Source: Rosettibacter firmus
GTDB lineage: Bacteria; Bacteroidota; Ignavibacteria; Ignavibacteriales; Melioribacteraceae
Assembly (NCBI RefSeq): GCF_036860695.1
Contig: NZ_JAYKGJ010000002.1
Location: forward strand, 316,001 to 380,000
Length of the DNA stretch: 64,000 nucleotides
Direction of reading: 5' to 3'
This document shows, piece by piece, positions 54,965-64,000 of this stretch. The notes under the pieces were generated by a model. The model was given only the letters and a program-made list of their open reading frames with translations, made no database searches and was not told the DNA's origin. A program made the position numbers and the translations under genes. Position 1 is the first letter of the stretch. The number at the start of each line of letters is the position of its first letter.

Positions 54965-55037
54965 GCGGGCGTAACTCAGTTGGTAGAGTAGTAGCTTCCC
55001 AAGCTAAATGTCGCGGGTTCGAGTCCCGTCGCCCGCT
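54965..55037 (+). tRNA. tRNA-Gly (CCC)
   Basis: The 73-base cloverleaf has acceptor GCGGGCG/CGCCCGC, D-arm ACTC/GAGT, anticodon loop TTCCCAA with anticodon CCC, and T-arm GCGGG/CCCGT around TTCGAGT. Discriminator is T and no CCA is encoded. The first anticodon-stem pair (G-A) is mismatched. It reads GGG codons and lies 72 bases before tRNA-Val. Confidence 0.93.
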
Positions 55038-55108
55038 CAAAAAAATTTGAAACTTTGGAATAAAAATTCTAAGTTTGGTTCGCAAATTTTAATGTTCTAA
55101 GAAATATT

Positions 55109-55183
55109 GGGCGCTTAGCTCAGCTGGTTCAGAGCACCTGCCTTACAAGCAGGGGGTCGTAGGTTCGAATCCTTCAGCGCCCA
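55109..55183 (+). tRNA. tRNA-Val (TAC)
   Basis: The 75-base cloverleaf has acceptor GGGCGCT/AGCGCCC, D-arm GCTC/GAGC, anticodon stem CCTGC/GCAGG with loop CTTACAA (anticodon TAC), and T-loop TTCGAAT. The T-stem has one T-T mismatch. Discriminator A; CCA is not encoded. An intrinsic terminator follows within eight bases. Confidence 0.94.
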
Positions 55184-55190
55184 CAATTAA

Positions 55191-56035: not shown

Positions 56036-56050
56036 GCTAAAACGTTTAAC
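56036..56050. promoter_or_regulatory. LacI-type operator, upstream copy
   Basis: GCTAAAACGTTTAAC differs by one base from the operator at 56198-56212, with the AAACGTTT core typical of LacI-family sites. It lies about 160 bp upstream of the second site, which would allow looping. Confidence 0.6.
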
Positions 56051-56197: not shown

Positions 56198-56212
56198 GTT
56201 AAAACGTTTAAC
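56198..56212. promoter_or_regulatory. LacI-type operator at the transcription start
   Basis: GTTAAAACGTTTAAC is an inverted repeat GTTAAA/TTTAAC around ACG. It ends five bases before the regulator's ATG and just downstream of the candidate -10, so binding should block transcription of its own operon. Confidence 0.7.
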
Positions 56213-56217
56213 TAAAT

Positions 56218-57240
56218 ATGAATGTAACTATTAAAGATGTAGCTAAAAAAGCCGGGGTCTCTATTGCTACTGTTTCTTTAGTACTCCATAAAAGTAATAG
56301 AATATCAACTGTTACACGCAATAAGGTCCTTAAAGCTATAAAAGAATTAAACTACCATCCTTCTCGTTCTGCTAAAGGTCTTGTTACAAGAACTACTGGT
56401 AATATCGGTTTTGTTTTAACTGAAGATCACTTCTTAAGAACTGAACCTTTTTATACTAAAATATTTTTAGGTACTGAATTTGTAACTCGTGATAATGATT
56501 ACTACGTTCTGTTATCTACAATAAAACGAGAATTTCATGAGGATGATCCTTTACCAAGATTTATACTTGAAAAAAATGTTGATGGAATTATCATAGCTGG
56601 CAAAGTACCTAATCTATTCATCTCAAAACTTTCAAAATATAAAATCCCTCTTGTGTTTGTTGATTATTATCCTCCACAAGGAGATTATAATGTTGTCTTA
56701 ATTGATAATATTAAAGGGGGATTTTTAGCTACTAAGTATCTGATAGAACTTGGACATAAAGATATTGCATTTGTTGGTGGCGATATAACTCATCCAAGTA
56801 TAACTGATCGTTTTATAGGTTATAAACAGGCTCTCGAATCATCGGGGTTATCTATAAATCCTGATATCATTATTACTGATGAGGATTATCCTTCTCGTGC
56901 TAATGGTTATGATGCTGCAAATAGATTGTTGAATCAATCTAAAAATATCACAGCAATATTTGCATGTAATGATGCAATGGCTCTCGGGATTTTACAATAT
57001 TGTTATGATAATGGGATTAAAGTTCCAGATGATATATCAATCGTTGGCTTTGATGATGTTGAATCAGATATTTCATCTACTCCACAATTAACTACAATTA
57101 GAGTCCCTAAAACCGAACTTGGAATTGAAGCAATGAATTTAATGGTCAATCTCTTGAAAGAAAAAGAAAAATTCCAAACAAGAAAAATTTTAGTACCAGT
57201 TGAATTAATTATAAGAACATCTACAAGAAAAATTAAATGA
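56218..57240 (+). CDS. LacI-family transcriptional regulator
   Basis: The 340-residue protein has the LacI helix-turn-helix and hinge at residues 1-60 (TIKDVAKKAGVSIATVSLVL, then YHPSRSAKGL), followed by a periplasmic-binding-protein-like sensor domain with VDGIIIAG, NIKGGFLATKYLIELGHKDIAFVGG, IFACNDAMALGIL and VPDDISIVGFDDVE. It should repress the following dehydrogenase and perhaps the secreted protein and receptor until a sugar is bound. Two matching operators lie upstream, one directly at its own start, so self-control is likely. It overlaps the dehydrogenase gene by four bases (ATGA). There is no clear Shine-Dalgarno. Confidence 0.93.
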   Translation: MNVTIKDVAKKAGVSIATVSLVLHKSNRISTVTRNKVLKAIKELNYHPSRSAKGLVTRTTGNIGFVLTEDHFLRTEPFYTKIFLGTEFVTRDNDYYVLLSTIKREFHEDDPLPRFILEKNVDGIIIAGKVPNLFISKLSKYKIPLVFVDYYPPQGDYNVVLIDNIKGGFLATKYLIELGHKDIAFVGGDITHPSITDRFIGYKQALESSGLSINPDIIITDEDYPSRANGYDAANRLLNQSKNITAIFACNDAMALGILQYCYDNGIKVPDDISIVGFDDVESDISSTPQLTTIRVPKTELGIEAMNLMVNLLKEKEKFQTRKILVPVELIIRTSTRKIK

Positions 57241-58244
57241 AATCTTTATTATTTATAAAACCAAATAATATTGAAATTATTGATAAAGAATTAAGAAAAC
57301 CTGAAAGTAATGAACTAATTATTAAAATAGATACCTGTGGTGTATGCGGTACAGATTTTCATATTTTTAGAGGGGAATCTTTAGCTAATAAAAATACAAT
57401 TTTAGGTCATGAATTTAGTGGAATTGTATATGACAATAATAATATTGCAGATTTTAACTTAGGTGATAAAGTTGTAGTTGATCCAAATATTTATTGTGGT
57501 ACTTGTTATTACTGCAGACAGGGTAAAATAAATTTTTGTATTAATCATAAAGCACTTGGAGTTACCGAAGATGGAGGATTTGCTGAGTACGCTATAGTCC
57601 CTGCTAAACAAGCTTATAAAATACCGTCTTATATATCACTTTCTACAATTGCATTCGCTGAACCGCTATCATGCTGTTTAAGAGCTATTAACAAAACTAT
57701 TATAAATTCTGGCGAATCAGTTATCATTTTTGGCGGAGGTTCAATTGGTTTATTAATGTTACAATTAGTAAAACTAAGAGGGGCATCGAAAGTTATCCTT
57801 ATTGAACCAATTAAACTAAGACAACAATTAGCACAAAAACTGGGGGCTGATTATGTTTTTGCTCCAAATGAGAATAACCTCAAAACTATTATTTATGATA
57901 TAACTCATGGAGGAGCAGATACTATTATAGATTGTGTTGGTAAACCTGAGATTCTCTCATTAAGTATAGAATTAATAAATCGTGGTGGAAAAATTATCTT
58001 GTTTGGTGTACCTCCTATTCATTCAAATGTTTCATTGGAACTGCATAAAATTTTTCTTAATGAACTAACTATTACTTCTTCATACCTTAATCCTTATACA
58101 TTCAATTATGCAATCGAGCTCTTGGTTAATCATAAAATCGATGTAGAGCAATTACCAGTTAAAAAAGTCGATATTGAATCGGTGAAAAACATTTTAGAAT
58201 CTGGAGCTGATGAAAGTATAATAAAATATCAATTTCATAATTAA
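57237..58244 (+). CDS. zinc-dependent medium-chain dehydrogenase (polyol/threonine dehydrogenase type)
   Basis: The 335-residue protein has catalytic zinc ligands Cys37 and the His58-Glu59 pair (GHEFSG), structural zinc cysteines 87, 90, 93 and 101, and the nucleotide fold VIIFGGGSIGLLMLQLVKLRGA near 160-181. This is the sorbitol/galactitol/threonine dehydrogenase branch. In a LacI-controlled locus it most likely oxidises a sugar alcohol or sugar taken up by the cell. Translation is coupled to the regulator. The next gene starts 14 bases after its stop. Confidence 0.9.
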   Translation: MKSLLFIKPNNIEIIDKELRKPESNELIIKIDTCGVCGTDFHIFRGESLANKNTILGHEFSGIVYDNNNIADFNLGDKVVVDPNIYCGTCYYCRQGKINFCINHKALGVTEDGGFAEYAIVPAKQAYKIPSYISLSTIAFAEPLSCCLRAINKTIINSGESVIIFGGGSIGLLMLQLVKLRGASKVILIEPIKLRQQLAQKLGADYVFAPNENNLKTIIYDITHGGADTIIDCVGKPEILSLSIELINRGGKIILFGVPPIHSNVSLELHKIFLNELTITSSYLNPYTFNYAIELLVNHKIDVEQLPVKKVDIESVKNILESGADESIIKYQFHN

Positions 58245-58258
58245 AAATGGAGGCATCA

Positions 58259-61200
58259 ATGAAAAGTTATTTTAAAAAGTTGTCTCTTCTATTGATTGGT
58301 TTTTCTTTTCTGATTGGGCTTAATAATATAAATGCTCAATCAGGGATCAATCTCATAGGGAGCTTTGAACAAGAATTACCATCATACTGGAAGAAGGGAA
58401 AAGAGCCAGCAGGGAGTAAATTAGAATGGGCAACCGACCAGTATAGATCAATGGGAAGGAGTTTAAAGATAGAGAAGACAACAACAGGCGAAGAAGCATA
58501 CTGGGAAAGTGAGAACATGTGCGATTTATGGTCACCAGTACATAATAAAGATGTAGATATATTCCTTGGGGCATATGTAAGGACAGAAGGAGTAAATGTA
58601 AATCCAGCAAATGAAGATGAGAGATGGTATATAAGTTATAGTTTTTATGGAAAGAGTGGGAATTTAATAGGGGAAGTAAAATTACCAATCGATCAAAGTA
58701 AAGCAAGCAGTAGTGGATGGATAGCCGATACGAATGAAGTAGGGAGTGTAATATTGCCAGAAGATTCATACACGACGATAATAAAATTTGTAGCAGGGAA
58801 GAATGCAACAGGGAAAGTATGGGCAGATGATTTTATGTTTTATGGAAGGAATGGAGCCTGGGCAGGACAGGATTGGAATACACAGGTAGGAGTACCAGAA
58901 GGATGGTTTTATTGGTTACCACCAGTAGGAGGAAATGACGGAAGATTGAGTGATGGATATGAGAATACAAAGATAACAAGTGAAGAAGCATATCATGGAA
59001 GATATAGTTTGAAGTTTGAAAATCTACCAGGAACACATGATGGCTTTGTAGGAACAAGAAGATATTTAATAGGAGATGAAATAAAAGCAGGAGATGTACT
59101 TAGAATAACAGTCTGGATAAAAGGAAAAGATTTAGATCCACAGAATGTAGCACAGGTAGGAGATCAAGCATGTTTTGCAATTACACCAATATTCCATAAC
59201 ACATATGGGAATAATGAAGGATGGGGAGAGTTCTGGTCAAGAGATATACCGATAAAGTTTCCAGCAGTAACATCATTTGACTGGATGCCATTTTATGTAG
59301 ATATACCAGTACAGGCAGGAGCGAAATCATTGTCAGTAAGATTACATCCACTTGGGAGATTTAAGGGGACAATCTATTGTGATTATCTTACAGTAGAGAA
59401 ATTAGATATACCAACAATAAGTGAGATAGGGAGCTTTGAACAAGAATTACCATCATACTGGAAGAAGGGAAAAGAGCCAGCAGGGAGTAAATTAGAATGG
59501 GCAACCGACCAGTATAGATCAATGGGAAGGAGTTTAAAGATAGAGAAGACAACAACAGGCGAAGAAGCATACTGGGAAAGTGAGAACATGTGCGATTTAT
59601 GGTCACCAGTACATAATAAAGATGTAGATATATTCCTTGGGGCATATGTAAGGACAGAAGGAGTAAATGTAAATCCAGCAAATGAAGATGAGAGATGGTA
59701 TATAAGTTATAGTTTTTATGGAAAGAGTGGGAATTTAATAGGGGAAGTAAAATTACCAATCGATCAAAGTAAAGCAAGCAGTAGTGGATGGATAGCCGAT
59801 ACGAATGAAGTAGGGAGTGTAATATTGCCAGAAGATTCATACACGACGATAATAAAATTTGTAGCAGGGAAGAATGCAACAGGGAAAGTATGGGCAGATG
59901 ATTTTATGTTTTATGGAAGGAATGGAGCCTGGGCAGGACAGGATTGGAATACACAGGTAGGAGTACCAGAAGGATGGTTTTATTGGTTACCACCAGTAGG
60001 AGGAAATGACGGAAGATTGAGTGATGGATATGAGAATACAAAGATAACAAGTGAAGAAGCATATCATGGAAGATATAGTTTGAAGTTTGAAAATCTACCA
60101 GGAACACATGATGGCTTTGTAGGAACAAGAAGATATTTAATAGGAGATGAAATAAAAGCAGGAGATGTACTTAGAATAACAGTCTGGATAAAAGGAAAAG
60201 ATTTAGATCCACAGAATGTAGCACAGGTAGGAGATCAAGCATGTTTTGCAATTACACCAATATTCCATAACACATATGGGAATAATGAAGGATGGGGAGA
60301 GTTCTGGTCAAGAGATATACCGATAAAGTTTCCAGCAGTAACATCATTTGACTGGATGCCATTTTATGTAGATATACCAGTACAGGCAGGAGCGAAATCA
60401 TTGTCAGTAAGATTACATCCACTTGGGAGATTTAAGGGGACAATCTATTGTGATTATCTTACAGTAGAGAAATTAGATATACCAACAATAAGTGAGATAG
60501 GGAGCTTTGAACAAGAATTACCATCATACTGGAAGAAGGGAAAAGAGCCAGCAGGGAGTAAATTAGAATGGGCAACCGACCAGTATAGATCAATGGGAAG
60601 GAGTTTAAAGATAGAGAAGACAACAACAGGCGAAGAAGCATACTGGGAAAGTGAGAACATGTGCGATTTATGGTCACCAGTACATAATAAAGATGTAGAT
60701 ATATTCCTTGGGGCATATGTAAGGACAGAAGGAGTAAATGTAAATCCAGCAAATGAAGATGAGAGATGGTATATAAGTTATAGTTTTTATGGAAAGAGTG
60801 GGAATTTAATAGGGGAAGTAAAATTACCAATCGATCAAAGTAAAGCAAGCAGTAGTGGATGGATAGCCGATACGAATGAAGTAGGGAGTGTAATATTGCC
60901 AGAAGATTCATACACGACGATAATAAAATTTGTAGCAGGGAAGAATGCAACAGGGAAAGTATGGGCAGATGATTTTATGTTTTATGGAAGGAATGGAGCC
61001 TGGGCAGGACAGGATTGGAATACACAGGTAGGAGTACCAGAAGGATGGTTTTATTGGTTACCACCAGTAGGAGGAAATGACGGAAGATTGAGTGATGGAT
61101 ATGAGAATACAAAGATAACAAGTGAAGAAGCATATCATGGAAGATATAGTTTGAAGTTTGAAAATCTACCAGGAACACATGATGGATTTGTAGGAACAAG

Positions 61201-61915
61201 AAGATATTTAATAGGAAGTAATGTTCCGAATGGAAAAGTTACATCAAGAATTTTTGATATTACTTCTCTTAAAGATGTTAATCCTGGAGATATGATAAGA
61301 ATCTCTGTATGGCTAAAAGCAAAAGGTTTAAATCCAGATGAAATGGCACAGATAGGAGATCAAGCTTCATTTGCAATTACACCAATATTCCATAACACAT
61401 ATGGAAATAATGAAGGATGGGGAGAATTCTGGTCAAGAGATATTCCATTAAAATTCCCTGTCGCAACAGAATTTGATTGGATGCAATTCTATGTAGACAT
61501 TCCAGTTCAGCAGGGTGCAAAGTCGTTATCAGTAAGATTACATCCACTTGGAAAATTTAAAGGAACTGTATACTGTGATCTTTTAGAAGTACGAAAATTA
61601 GATCTTGTAGGAGTAGAATCAGCAGAAGCTGTTCCAAATCAATTTAAATTATTCCAGAATTATCCAAATCCATTTAATCCATCGACCATAATTAGTTATA
61701 CTGTACTTAAACAAACTAATGTAACAATCAGAATTTATGACATACTTGGTAGAGAAGTAAAAACATTGATTAATCAAATACAGCCAGCTGGTGTTTATAA
61801 AATTGAATGGGATGGTACAAATAAATTTAATATGCCAGTAGCATCTGGTACTTATATTTATAGAATTGAAGCAGGAGAATTTATTCAAGCAAAGAAAATG
61901 ATATTGCTCAGGTAA
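58259..61915 (+). CDS. T9SS-exported protein with three near-identical 357-residue modules
   Basis: I start at the ATG at 58259 because GGAGG lies just before it; an ATG 12 bases earlier is inside the ribosome-site stretch. That gives 1218 residues. Parts: a signal peptide (KKLSLLLIGFSFLIGLNNINAQS); three modules of 357 residues, each with two jelly-roll-like halves beginning GSFEQELPSYWKKG and NTQVGVPEGWFYW, of a type seen in carbohydrate-binding domains; and a C-terminal T9SS type A sorting domain (QNYPNPFNPST, DILGREVKTL, ASGTYIYRIEAG). No catalytic residues are recognisable, so binding rather than cleavage is likely. It should be carried out through SprA and displayed or released. Modules 1, 2 and most of 3 share an unusual codon style; the last part of module 3 and the tail have normal codons. 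Confidence 0.88.
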   Translation: MKSYFKKLSLLLIGFSFLIGLNNINAQSGINLIGSFEQELPSYWKKGKEPAGSKLEWATDQYRSMGRSLKIEKTTTGEEAYWESENMCDLWSPVHNKDVDIFLGAYVRTEGVNVNPANEDERWYISYSFYGKSGNLIGEVKLPIDQSKASSSGWIADTNEVGSVILPEDSYTTIIKFVAGKNATGKVWADDFMFYGRNGAWAGQDWNTQVGVPEGWFYWLPPVGGNDGRLSDGYENTKITSEEAYHGRYSLKFENLPGTHDGFVGTRRYLIGDEIKAGDVLRITVWIKGKDLDPQNVAQVGDQACFAITPIFHNTYGNNEGWGEFWSRDIPIKFPAVTSFDWMPFYVDIPVQAGAKSLSVRLHPLGRFKGTIYCDYLTVEKLDIPTISEIGSFEQELPSYWKKGKEPAGSKLEWATDQYRSMGRSLKIEKTTTGEEAYWESENMCDLWSPVHNKDVDIFLGAYVRTEGVNVNPANEDERWYISYSFYGKSGNLIGEVKLPIDQSKASSSGWIADTNEVGSVILPEDSYTTIIKFVAGKNATGKVWADDFMFYGRNGAWAGQDWNTQVGVPEGWFYWLPPVGGNDGRLSDGYENTKITSEEAYHGRYSLKFENLPGTHDGFVGTRRYLIGDEIKAGDVLRITVWIKGKDLDPQNVAQVGDQACFAITPIFHNTYGNNEGWGEFWSRDIPIKFPAVTSFDWMPFYVDIPVQAGAKSLSVRLHPLGRFKGTIYCDYLTVEKLDIPTISEIGSFEQELPSYWKKGKEPAGSKLEWATDQYRSMGRSLKIEKTTTGEEAYWESENMCDLWSPVHNKDVDIFLGAYVRTEGVNVNPANEDERWYISYSFYGKSGNLIGEVKLPIDQSKASSSGWIADTNEVGSVILPEDSYTTIIKFVAGKNATGKVWADDFMFYGRNGAWAGQDWNTQVGVPEGWFYWLPPVGGNDGRLSDGYENTKITSEEAYHGRYSLKFENLPGTHDGFVGTRRYLIGSNVPNGKVTSRIFDITSLKDVNPGDMIRISVWLKAKGLNPDEMAQIGDQASFAITPIFHNTYGNNEGWGEFWSRDIPLKFPVATEFDWMQFYVDIPVQQGAKSLSVRLHPLGKFKGTVYCDLLEVRKLDLVGVESAEAVPNQFKLFQNYPNPFNPSTIISYTVLKQTNVTIRIYDILGREVKTLINQIQPAGVYKIEWDGTNKFNMPVASGTYIYRIEAGEFIQAKKMILLR
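58355..61216 (+). repeat. tandem 1071-bp repeat, two full copies and a 720-bp third
   Basis: Copy 1 is 58355-59425, copy 2 is 59426-60496 and copy 3 begins at 60497. Copies 1 and 2 appear identical base for base. Copy 3 matches to 61216 apart from one silent change at 61186 (C to A) and then diverges to a related but differently coded sequence. The repeat unit is 357 codons, so the frame is kept. Codons in it nearly always end in A or G, with very few ending in T. Confidence 0.95.
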
Positions 61916-61964: not shown

Positions 61965-61993
61965 GATTATAAATAATTAATTGGGTGTTAGAT

Positions 61994-64000
61994 ATGTTTA
62001 TAATCGGTAATGGTTTTAAAAATAATATTATATTCTTTTTGATATTATTTGGAATAATTTCGATTGAATTGAATGCTGGTACGACAGGAAAAATTGCTGG
62101 AAGAGTAACTGATATAAATACTGGAGAACCTCTCATTGGTGTAAATGTTGTTATCACAGGGACATCCATGGGGGCTGCTACAGATGTGGATGGCAATTAT
62201 TTTATTATAAATATTCCACCTGGAATTTATGAAATTAAAGCTTCACTGGTTGGATACTCAACAGTAGTTATAAAAAATATTAGGGTGTCAATAGATCAAA
62301 CAACCAGAGTTGATATTCAAATGAGAGAAGAAGCAGTTTCTATTAGTGATATTGTTGTTACTGCACAAAAACCAATTGTTCAGAAAGATTTGACTTCTAC
62401 AGAAGCAAAGATAAGTGGTGAACAAATATCAATGTTGCCTCTGGAAGATATTCAATCTGTAATCAATCTTCAGGCTGGAGTTGTTGATGGTCATTTTAGA
62501 GGTGGAAGAAGTAATGAAGTAAAATATTTAATTGATGGTATTTCTGTAAACGATGCTTATTCTGGTATGTCTGCACTCGAGGCAGAAGTTAATAGCATTC
62601 AGGAATTACAGGTTCTTACAGGTACTTTTAATGCTGAATATGGAGAAGCTTTATCTGGTGTTGTAAATCAGGTAACAAAAATTGCTGGCGATAAATTAGA
62701 AGCCGATTTTTCATTTTATTCAGGCGATTATTTTACTGCAAGAAAAAATTTATATCAAAATATAAATCATATTTCTCCCAGTGATGTTTATAATATTCAA
62801 GGTAATTTGAGTGGACCTGTCCCAGGATTAAAAAAATTTCTAAAGTTCTTTATAAGTGGAAGATATTATTATGATGATGGATATCTATATGGAAGAAGAA
62901 TGTTCAATCCATCAGATTCATCAAATTTTTCTGCAAACGATCCGAAAGATTGGTATATAGGTGCTACTGGTGATAATAAATTTGTTCCAATGAATTACAA
63001 TAAAAGATATACTTTGCAGGGAAAACTTTCCATTAATTTTAGTAATAGTGGGAAAGGTTTAATCGTTAATACATTATATCAAAATCAACAATGGAGAGAT
63101 TATAATCATCGATTTAAATTAAATCCCGATGGTGATTATAAAAAGTTTCAGGAAAGTTTTTTGACAAGCTTAAATTATACTTATGTACTAAGTAATTCAG
63201 CTTTTATTGATTTTTTAGCTTCCAGTTTTACAACCAAATTCAAACAATACGTTTATGAAGATCCTCTTGATAATCGTTATGTTAAACCAGATAGAATGAA
63301 AGATGTAAGTGGCAATGCATTTTTAACTGGTGGAACAGAAAACTGGCATTTCTATCATACAACTTCTACTTACACAGGCAAAATAGATTTTACCTGGCAA
63401 ATTAATAACTTGCATCAAATTAAAAGCGGATTTGAATATAAATATCATAACATTGAATATAAAGATTTTCAAATTGTTATTGATGCAACAACGAATTATA
63501 AACCTTCACTTCCTCAACCAGGTTCATTTAATTATAATATTTATAAAACTAATCCATATCAATTAGCTGCTTACATGCAGGATAAAATTGAATTAGAATA
63601 TTTAGTTGTAAATATTGGTGTAAGATTCGACTTTTTTGAACCTGATGGTTATTATCTAAAAGATGCAAATAAAATTTCTATTCTTGATCAACTAAGTCCA
63701 CCATATCCAGACTCACTTTTACAAAAAGCAAAATATAAATATCAAATTAGTCCAAGAATTGGTATTTCGTATCCAATCACAGATAAAGGTGCTATTCATA
63801 TTTCTTATGGACACTTTTTCCAGATTCCACCATTTGAATATTTATATCGTAATCCAAATTTCAGAATTCCTTTAACAGGAGATTTTCCAGAGAATGTTGG
63901 CAATACAATTGGGAATGCAGATCTTGATGCTCAACAAACTGTTATGTACGAAATAGGACTTCAACAACAATTAGCTACAAATTTTGGAATTACTCTTACA
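61994..64000 (+). CDS. TonB-dependent outer-membrane receptor (C-terminal end cut off)
   Basis: The frame is open from the ATG at 61994 to the window edge, 669 codons. It has a signal peptide (FFLILFGIISIELNA), a carboxypeptidase-regulatory-like domain (about 30-115: GKIAGRVTDINTGEPLIGVNV, TDVDGNYFI), a plug domain (about 120-230: DIVVTAQKP, FRGGRSNEVKYLIDGISVND, EYGEALSGVVNQVTK) and then the start of the beta-barrel. This is the SusC-like or sugar/oligomer receptor layout found in this phylum. It follows the repeat protein and ends the carbohydrate-type locus seen here. A SusD-like partner, if any, is beyond the edge. Confidence 0.9.
   Translation, partial: MFIIGNGFKNNIIFFLILFGIISIELNAGTTGKIAGRVTDINTGEPLIGVNVVITGTSMGAATDVDGNYFIINIPPGIYEIKASLVGYSTVVIKNIRVSIDQTTRVDIQMREEAVSISDIVVTAQKPIVQKDLTSTEAKISGEQISMLPLEDIQSVINLQAGVVDGHFRGGRSNEVKYLIDGISVNDAYSGMSALEAEVNSIQELQVLTGTFNAEYGEALSGVVNQVTKIAGDKLEADFSFYSGDYFTARKNLYQNINHISPSDVYNIQGNLSGPVPGLKKFLKFFISGRYYYDDGYLYGRRMFNPSDSSNFSANDPKDWYIGATGDNKFVPMNYNKRYTLQGKLSINFSNSGKGLIVNTLYQNQQWRDYNHRFKLNPDGDYKKFQESFLTSLNYTYVLSNSAFIDFLASSFTTKFKQYVYEDPLDNRYVKPDRMKDVSGNAFLTGGTENWHFYHTTSTYTGKIDFTWQINNLHQIKSGFEYKYHNIEYKDFQIVIDATTNYKPSLPQPGSFNYNIYKTNPYQLAAYMQDKIELEYLVVNIGVRFDFFEPDGYYLKDANKISILDQLSPPYPDSLLQKAKYKYQISPRIGISYPITDKGAIHISYGHFFQIPPFEYLYRNPNFRIPLTGDFPENVGNTIGNADLDAQQTVMYEIGLQQQLATNFGITLT

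Follow-up and report, generated by a model that had tools for sequence, protein, structure and literature searches.

We analysed a 64,000-nucleotide stretch of the genome of Rosettibacter firmus (Melioribacteraceae; contig NZ_JAYKGJ010000002.1, positions 316,001 to 380,000), hereafter the window. It contains a gene for a protein of 1222 residues, built of tandem modules and ending in a sorting tail of the type IX secretion system (T9SS) (Table 1). The homogenised part of this gene alone, not the whole gene, lacks T at four-fold degenerate third positions outside leucine and arginine codons and prefers purines. Codon bias is usually attributed to the supply of tRNAs, the level of expression or a mutation bias of the whole genome. 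In this case it is extreme, runs against the preference of ribosomal-protein genes and has long been maintained; within the window gene, only the part that recombines has it. Nature here supplies a test of whether repetition puts a constraint on synonymous sites. We found no description of this codon bias in the literature, as judged on titles and abstract openings. The explanation we favour, at a probability of about 0.42, is repeat-linked selection for purine-loaded, poorly self-pairing sequence in a T9SS-exported array of paired jelly rolls resembling carbohydrate-binding modules (CBM).

Homogenised modules and their codon composition

Modules 1 and 2 are identical, and module 3 matches them over 720 bp with a single silent difference in the third base of a glycine codon (C at 59044, A at 61186), exactly as a preliminary description of the window had read them. 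That description also held that the end of module 3 encodes almost the same protein with ordinary codons. This stands in part: over 111 aligned residues the protein is 75% identical to the internal copies, and the codons come close to ordinary usage without reaching it (T 0.27, A 0.67). This end carries an insertion that resembles the one found in terminal copies of relatives. Copies within a gene are closer to each other than orthologues are: the four-fold identity between copies is 0.94 in G017 and 0.95 in G037, two relatives, whereas module 1 of the window reaches only 0.45-0.46 with the first copy of either. It is well supported that the internal modules are kept near-identical by concerted evolution, homogenised by recombination, and the terminal half-module of the window gene escapes this homogenisation. 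Both homogenisation between the copies and a composition of their own, as first proposed, are thus supported.

At the four-fold sites of one module (outside leucine and arginine; n = 127) the composition is A 0.83, G 0.13, C 0.05 and T 0.00. The last value, 0 of 127, compares with a T frequency of 0.45 ± 0.06 (minimum 0.27) in 309 open reading frames (ORFs) sampled from twenty 20-kb stretches of the genome. We then considered a wider sample, consisting of the window and forty stretches (approximately 27% of the genome, 696 ORFs), cut into 4863 segments of 50 four-fold sites. The lowest T frequency of a segment outside this gene was 0.12, while 29 segments of this gene were at 0.00; no other gene in this sample approaches such a deficit.

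Counts in one module agree with the codon preferences noted in the preliminary description. Valine is GTA in 22 of 23 cases, alanine GCA in 17 of 20, isoleucine ATA in 20 of 23, threonine ACA or ACG in 20 of 21, and glycine GGA or GGG in 35 of 37. The codons GTT, GCT, ACT, CCT, GGT, TCT and CGT are absent, and ATT occurs once. To call the repeat almost free of T in third codon positions was nevertheless too strong, because codons with only C/T options (NNY) retain T at 0.86, as in the genome, which leaves an overall third-position T of 0.25. G is also elevated in the module relative to the genome (AAG 0.45 vs 0.13, GAG 0.32 vs 0.10, GGG 0.30 vs 0.05). Hence, the signature is a preference for purines at sites where the code offers one as a synonym; T as such is not in short supply. 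The terminal half-module provides an internal control: none of the 44 four-fold sites in the second half of an internal module is T, whereas 13 of the 49 in the unhomogenised terminal half are (p = 1.2e-4). There are also antisense ORFs of 151-163 amino acids, which we take as a by-product of the missing T.

Table 1. Features of the gene, its modules and its locus (window coordinates), and propeller-like repeat genes of the same genome.
Feature	Position	Strand	Remarks
Whole gene, 1222 aa	58247..61915	+	open frame; export signal-like N-terminus, three modules, C-terminal T9SS tail
Module 1, 357 aa	58355..59425	+	predicted pair of beta-jelly-rolls; four-fold T 0/127 outside Leu/Arg
Module 2	59426..60496	+	equals module 1 over 1071 bp
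Module 3, homogenised part, 720 bp	60497..61216	+	one silent difference, at 61186
Module 3, unhomogenised terminal part	61217..61612	+	near-ordinary codons (T 0.27); internal control
T9SS type A sorting tail	61613..61915	+	near-ordinary codons (T 0.35); TIGR04183
LacI-family regulator	56218..57240	+	PF00356, Peripla_BP_3
Zinc alcohol-dehydrogenase-like enzyme	57237..58244	+	ADH_N, ADH_zinc_N
TonB-dependent receptor	61985..64000	+	CarbopepD_reg_2, Plug; runs past the window end
Propeller-like genes	G000 C2:449724-451889 (L047, L082, L089, L197); C5:1844-3616 (L088, L195); L080		

The bias in relatives and in other repeat genes

We found matches to the module in 23 of the 79 family genomes searched, the window's own included, and in 56 of the 164 genomes of the order; the two other searched genomes of the same genus gave none. 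Both the gene and its T deficit recur in relatives. Four-fold T is below that of neighbouring genes in 21 of the 23 family genomes, significantly so in 17 (the non-significant ones being G052, G029, G055 and G004); it is higher in G063, non-significantly, and in G003, significantly. Among 21 loci from other families of the order, 15 have lower T than their neighbours, significantly so in 9, and two have significantly higher T. A divergent module subfamily without T depletion is present in G003 (G003:C24:51111-52241, L113; T 0.62) and in G063 (L129; T 0.52).

Four-fold sites are saturated between genera. The four-fold identity between the window module and a relative at 84% amino acid identity is 0.45, where composition predicts 0.43, and flanking genes show the same saturation. 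What the genomes share is hence a bias and not a set of inherited old bases. The bias is old and maintained, the T deficit being common to most family members long after saturation. A recent recoding of the window module alone was considered and is not supported, the flanking genes being equally saturated.

Ribosomal-protein genes, which we defined as main-strand frames within 1500 bases of a match to the L2 gene (two of 13 genomes lacked a match), prefer GTT and ATT and have T frequencies of 0.32-0.55, above those of local neighbours, in 11 of 11 genomes. This preference is the opposite of that of the module, and we rejected ordinary translational selection. The bias is not of the expression type and seems tied to repetition rather than to expression strength.

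Among the 23 genes examined, 12 had two comparable copies, and in these the four-fold identity between copies correlated with the excess of A (rho = 0.76, p = 0.004) and with the loss of T (rho = -0.69, p = 0.014); the value used for the window's gene (G000) is that of module 3 against module 1 or 2 (0.88), not that of 1 against 2 (1.00). Within a gene, G017 shows a T of 0.11 in the homogenised part vs 0.24 in the terminal part. In the genome of the window, seven other distinct repeat genes were compared (three propeller-like, L046 = L062, L091, L187 and L193), counted after removing duplicates by their coordinates. In five of them the internal repeats are at least 78% identical in DNA and have T frequencies of 0.27-0.33; in the two with approximately 66% identical repeats T is 0.52 and 0.44. 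Non-repeat ORFs of this genome have 0.42 ± 0.06 (n = 625, a few genes possibly counted twice). L062 is part of the L046 gene, with T 0.44 on 27 sites of a different repeat segment. Some stretches of this survey were chosen since low T had already been seen in propeller genes, which themselves had been fetched earlier. The propeller-like genes lie beside T9SS sorting domains and have repeats of 126-129 bp that are 78-86% identical, with T at 0.27-0.30. Overall, the bias tends to follow repetition and homogenisation.

The module also marks the limits of assemblies. Of the 23 family genomes that carry the gene, 16 have the module interrupted no more than 14 bases from the end of a contig, two more (G038 and G062) have a run of N inside it, and several have N-terminal and C-terminal pieces at the ends of different contigs. 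Near-identical arrays would disrupt assemblies in this way, a general problem that PMC6868369 reportedly addresses. What is probably a large surface protein is thus likely to be truncated in the records of these 16 genomes.

The predicted protein and its locus

The sorting domain TIGR04183 matches residues 1139-1219 with 41.4 bits (cut-off 23), one of 91 such matches in the genome, of which 88 are above the cut-off. The N-terminal stretch is hydrophobic and signal-like, as judged by eye, and in G037 a neighbouring gene is PorV-like by Pfam. From its sequence, the protein is a T9SS-tailed chain of tandem 357-residue modules that is predicted to be exported.

The window module matched no Pfam family, and 17 aligned modules gave only two weak, non-CBM matches (E 0.13 and 0.18). 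A sequence search of the PDB with the window module gave no match at E up to 1, and Pfam recognised no catalytic domain in the window protein. The AlphaFold2 model of the module consists of two beta-jelly-rolls (mean predicted local distance difference test, pLDDT, 68.9; predicted template modelling score, pTM, 0.52). Foldseek placed the model nearest to a CBM22 tandem, with the surface glycan-binding protein B 7kwb among the matches. VIA-align gave Z 12.5 to CBM16 2zey, over 130 residues at 3.1 A, and Z 12.3 to the CBM22 tandem 4xup, over 280 residues at 14.8 A; families outside the fold lists may also resemble the module. Together with the locus context, this predicted fold suggests that the module may bind glycans.

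The gene has a LacI-family regulator and a zinc alcohol-dehydrogenase-like enzyme upstream and a TonB-dependent receptor downstream (Table 1). Judged from the sequences, a TonB receptor is next to the gene in all 16 loci that hold the 3' side, among 20 fetched from relatives. Beyond the receptor the genome has frames of 1079, 345, 516, 431, 284 and 269 residues. The large one has no Pfam match, and relatives encode equivalents of four of the last five, assigned by Pfam to PorV, SurA/PPIase, a solute-binding protein and a permease of the ATP-binding cassette (ABC) type. Glycoside hydrolases are found near the locus in one relative each, GH32 in G037 and GH92 in G011. The conserved locus looks made for sugar uptake.

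Two AAAACGTTTAAC sequences precede the LacI-type regulator (window 56039-56050 and 56201-56212), the second directly before its start; they resemble LacI-family operators. Approximately 1 kb upstream of the locus (window 54965-55184) are genes for tRNA-Gly(CCC) and tRNA-Val(TAC), which read GGG and GTA, both raised in the module. ARAGORN found neither tRNA in 20 loci of relatives, some of which do not reach that far upstream, and a tie between the pair and the codon bias is probably a coincidence.

Causes of the bias and known systems

The favoured explanation starts from the array itself. In a homogenised array each self-complementary segment would be present many times per mRNA and per DNA strand. 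Synonymous sites would then be selected toward purines, and above all away from U/T, which can pair with both A and G, so that folding would be avoided in the long mRNA or in DNA that is single-stranded while recombining. On the cell surface, the exported protein would present a large number of glycan-binding modules, which would capture polysaccharide for the TonB receptor and the ABC transporter encoded next to it. The selection step is the one that we infer. RNA folding is consistent with it: the module RNA has a mean minimum free energy of -21.0 kcal/mol per 150 nucleotides, vs -29.1 ± 1.3 for synonymous sequences with the codon usage of the genome (z +6.4), and it has 5 inverted 8-mers vs 18.6 in such sequences. 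Of 13 modules from 11 relatives (G017 and G037 contributing two each), 12 were also less structured, G003 being the exception, with a mean z of +1.77 vs -0.52 for 30 control rows, two of them repeated. RNase E-type sites (RNWUU) showed no difference from expectation (36 vs 39.4 ± 4.0), and neither did promoter-like TANNNT sites clearly differ (sense 22 vs 23.3, antisense 33 vs 29.4). The preliminary description had named recombination between copies and selection on the RNA among possible causes. Both are still candidates. The bias follows the homogenised part of this gene, and it leaves the RNA much less structured.

Several observations weigh against selection of this kind. When the comparison is with shuffles that keep the same codons, no clear lack of structure is left in the RNA (window z +1.3, relatives' mean -0.04). 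Selection on the order of bases in the RNA thus left no signal there, and it is composition alone, not base order, that is special and unfolds the RNA. The correlation with copy identity rests partly on one genus (G095, G096, G100 and G102), to which most low-identity genes belong, and its p values are optimistic. Low T is also found in 17 of the 625 non-repeat ORFs (below 0.31), and the gene at L193:8659-11910, with 288-bp repeats that are 96% identical, goes down only to T 0.32 (A 0.52). There is no contrast between the homogenised and terminal parts of G037 (0.14 vs 0.14), where the likeness of the copies extends over their whole length; single-copy genes give mixed results in this comparison. 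Complete homologues with one assembled copy (G080, G084, G109 and G147) are T-poor as well; these may be collapsed arrays. T is significantly above that of the neighbours in G003, L143/G143, L155 and G103. In the pooled codon shifts of 10 relatives (leaving out the exception G003), GGC (1.41) and ATC (1.31) are up while GTG, GGG and AGG are down, where a pure purine rule predicts otherwise. In the same pool serine AGT rises as TCT falls, and leucine CTT and CTC both fall, changes that purine content does explain. Finally, a jelly-roll fold does not prove sugar binding: in the model comparisons phage tailspike domains score as high as the CBMs (Z 12.7), meprin reaches 11.2 and cyclase chains score nearly as high.

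Bias could instead arise without selection, if recombination between copies, possibly coupled to transcription, turned T of the coding strand to A or G by strand-asymmetric conversion or mutation. The tendency of the signature to track homogenisation speaks for such a process, and the unchanged NNY T:C ratio in the window (T 0.86) suits a T to A process that spares T/C; ordinary GC-biased conversion would have raised C at these codons, which is not so in the window. Yet the rise of serine AGT is unreachable from TCN by one silent step, the same-genome gene with 96% identical repeats loses little T, and G103, with a four-fold identity between copies of 0.79, has more T than its neighbours. We regard this process as unlikely, though as the nearest competitor. 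Somewhat less probable still is selection on codons and tRNAs, in which the module would be tuned to a decoding state, such as slow growth or stress, that favours A-ending codons through U34 tRNAs. It would fit the unequal response of the codon boxes, with GTA and ATA rising most in the 10 relatives (2.3-fold and 2.15-fold), and an effect on valine and isoleucine that is independent of the next base. Against it, ribosomal-protein usage points the other way in each of the 11 genomes, the terminal half-module belongs to the same protein yet is far less affected, and AGG and GGG, which are rare codons of the genome, are raised in the window.

That the gene arrived recently by horizontal transfer, from a donor with such codon usage, is very unlikely; transfer was another cause first suggested. 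A composition far from that of the genome and the lack of a match in the two other searched genomes of the genus would suit it, but the T deficit is common to 21 of the 23 family genomes that have the gene, the locus is conserved, synonymous sites are saturated, C is not raised as it is in L107, and the gene's own end has near-ordinary codons. The L107 case (L107:7438-8187, minus strand) concerns a gene resembling those of short-chain dehydrogenases, whose third positions are rich in C (0.34-0.42) and which may truly have been transferred. We give as little credence to selection for hidden stops that would terminate frameshifted translation. Stops in the +1 frame do number 39 in the window module (58355-59425), where 17.6 ± 3.1 are expected, and they are clearly raised in modules of nine of 11 relatives (not in L008, 18 vs 17.8, or L010, 12 vs 16.3). 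However, +2-frame stops fall (29 vs 43.6), and GTA and ATA are enriched about equally before C/T, where they make no +1 stop, and before A/G. Hidden stops are therefore apparently a by-product of the use of GTA and ATA.

A wider reading is tentative: a repeat-linked force, either selection against self-pairing or a strand-asymmetric conversion bias, might strip synonymous T from homogenised coding arrays independently of tRNA supply and expression, completely here and mildly in other repeat genes.

The protein, the locus and the concerted evolution are, with good support, of known kinds. The protein resembles the T9SS type A surface proteins of Bacteroidota and Ignavibacteria in its C-terminal sorting tail, export-signal-like start and modular exoprotein architecture, and differs from them in its homogenised modules with a private codon composition. 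Tandem CBMs (the CBM22 pair of Xyn10C, CBM16, CBM4-2) share the predicted two jelly rolls per module, with Z of approximately 12 to CBM16 and the CBM22 tandem; unlike these, the window module has no sequence match in Pfam or PDB, no recognised catalytic domain accompanies it, and it is repeated as near-identical DNA. Like SusD-like and surface glycan-binding proteins of polysaccharide utilisation loci, this predicted surface protein is encoded next to a TonB receptor, a LacI regulator and a binding-protein-dependent transporter, but it is a repeat array with a T9SS tail and its partner transporter is an ABC system. The codon signature itself is closest to the purine loading of mRNAs (Lao and Forsdyke), in which synonymous sites are shifted to purines with less RNA pairing. 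A passage of PMC5028192 cites that work for thermophilic bacteria, where purine loading limits mRNA:mRNA interactions; the paper itself reports selection against stochastic interactions between mRNA and non-coding RNA in prokaryotes, a neighbouring idea. Here, in contrast to the thermophilic bacteria of the cited passage, the shift is limited to the repeated part of one gene, where it is nearly complete.

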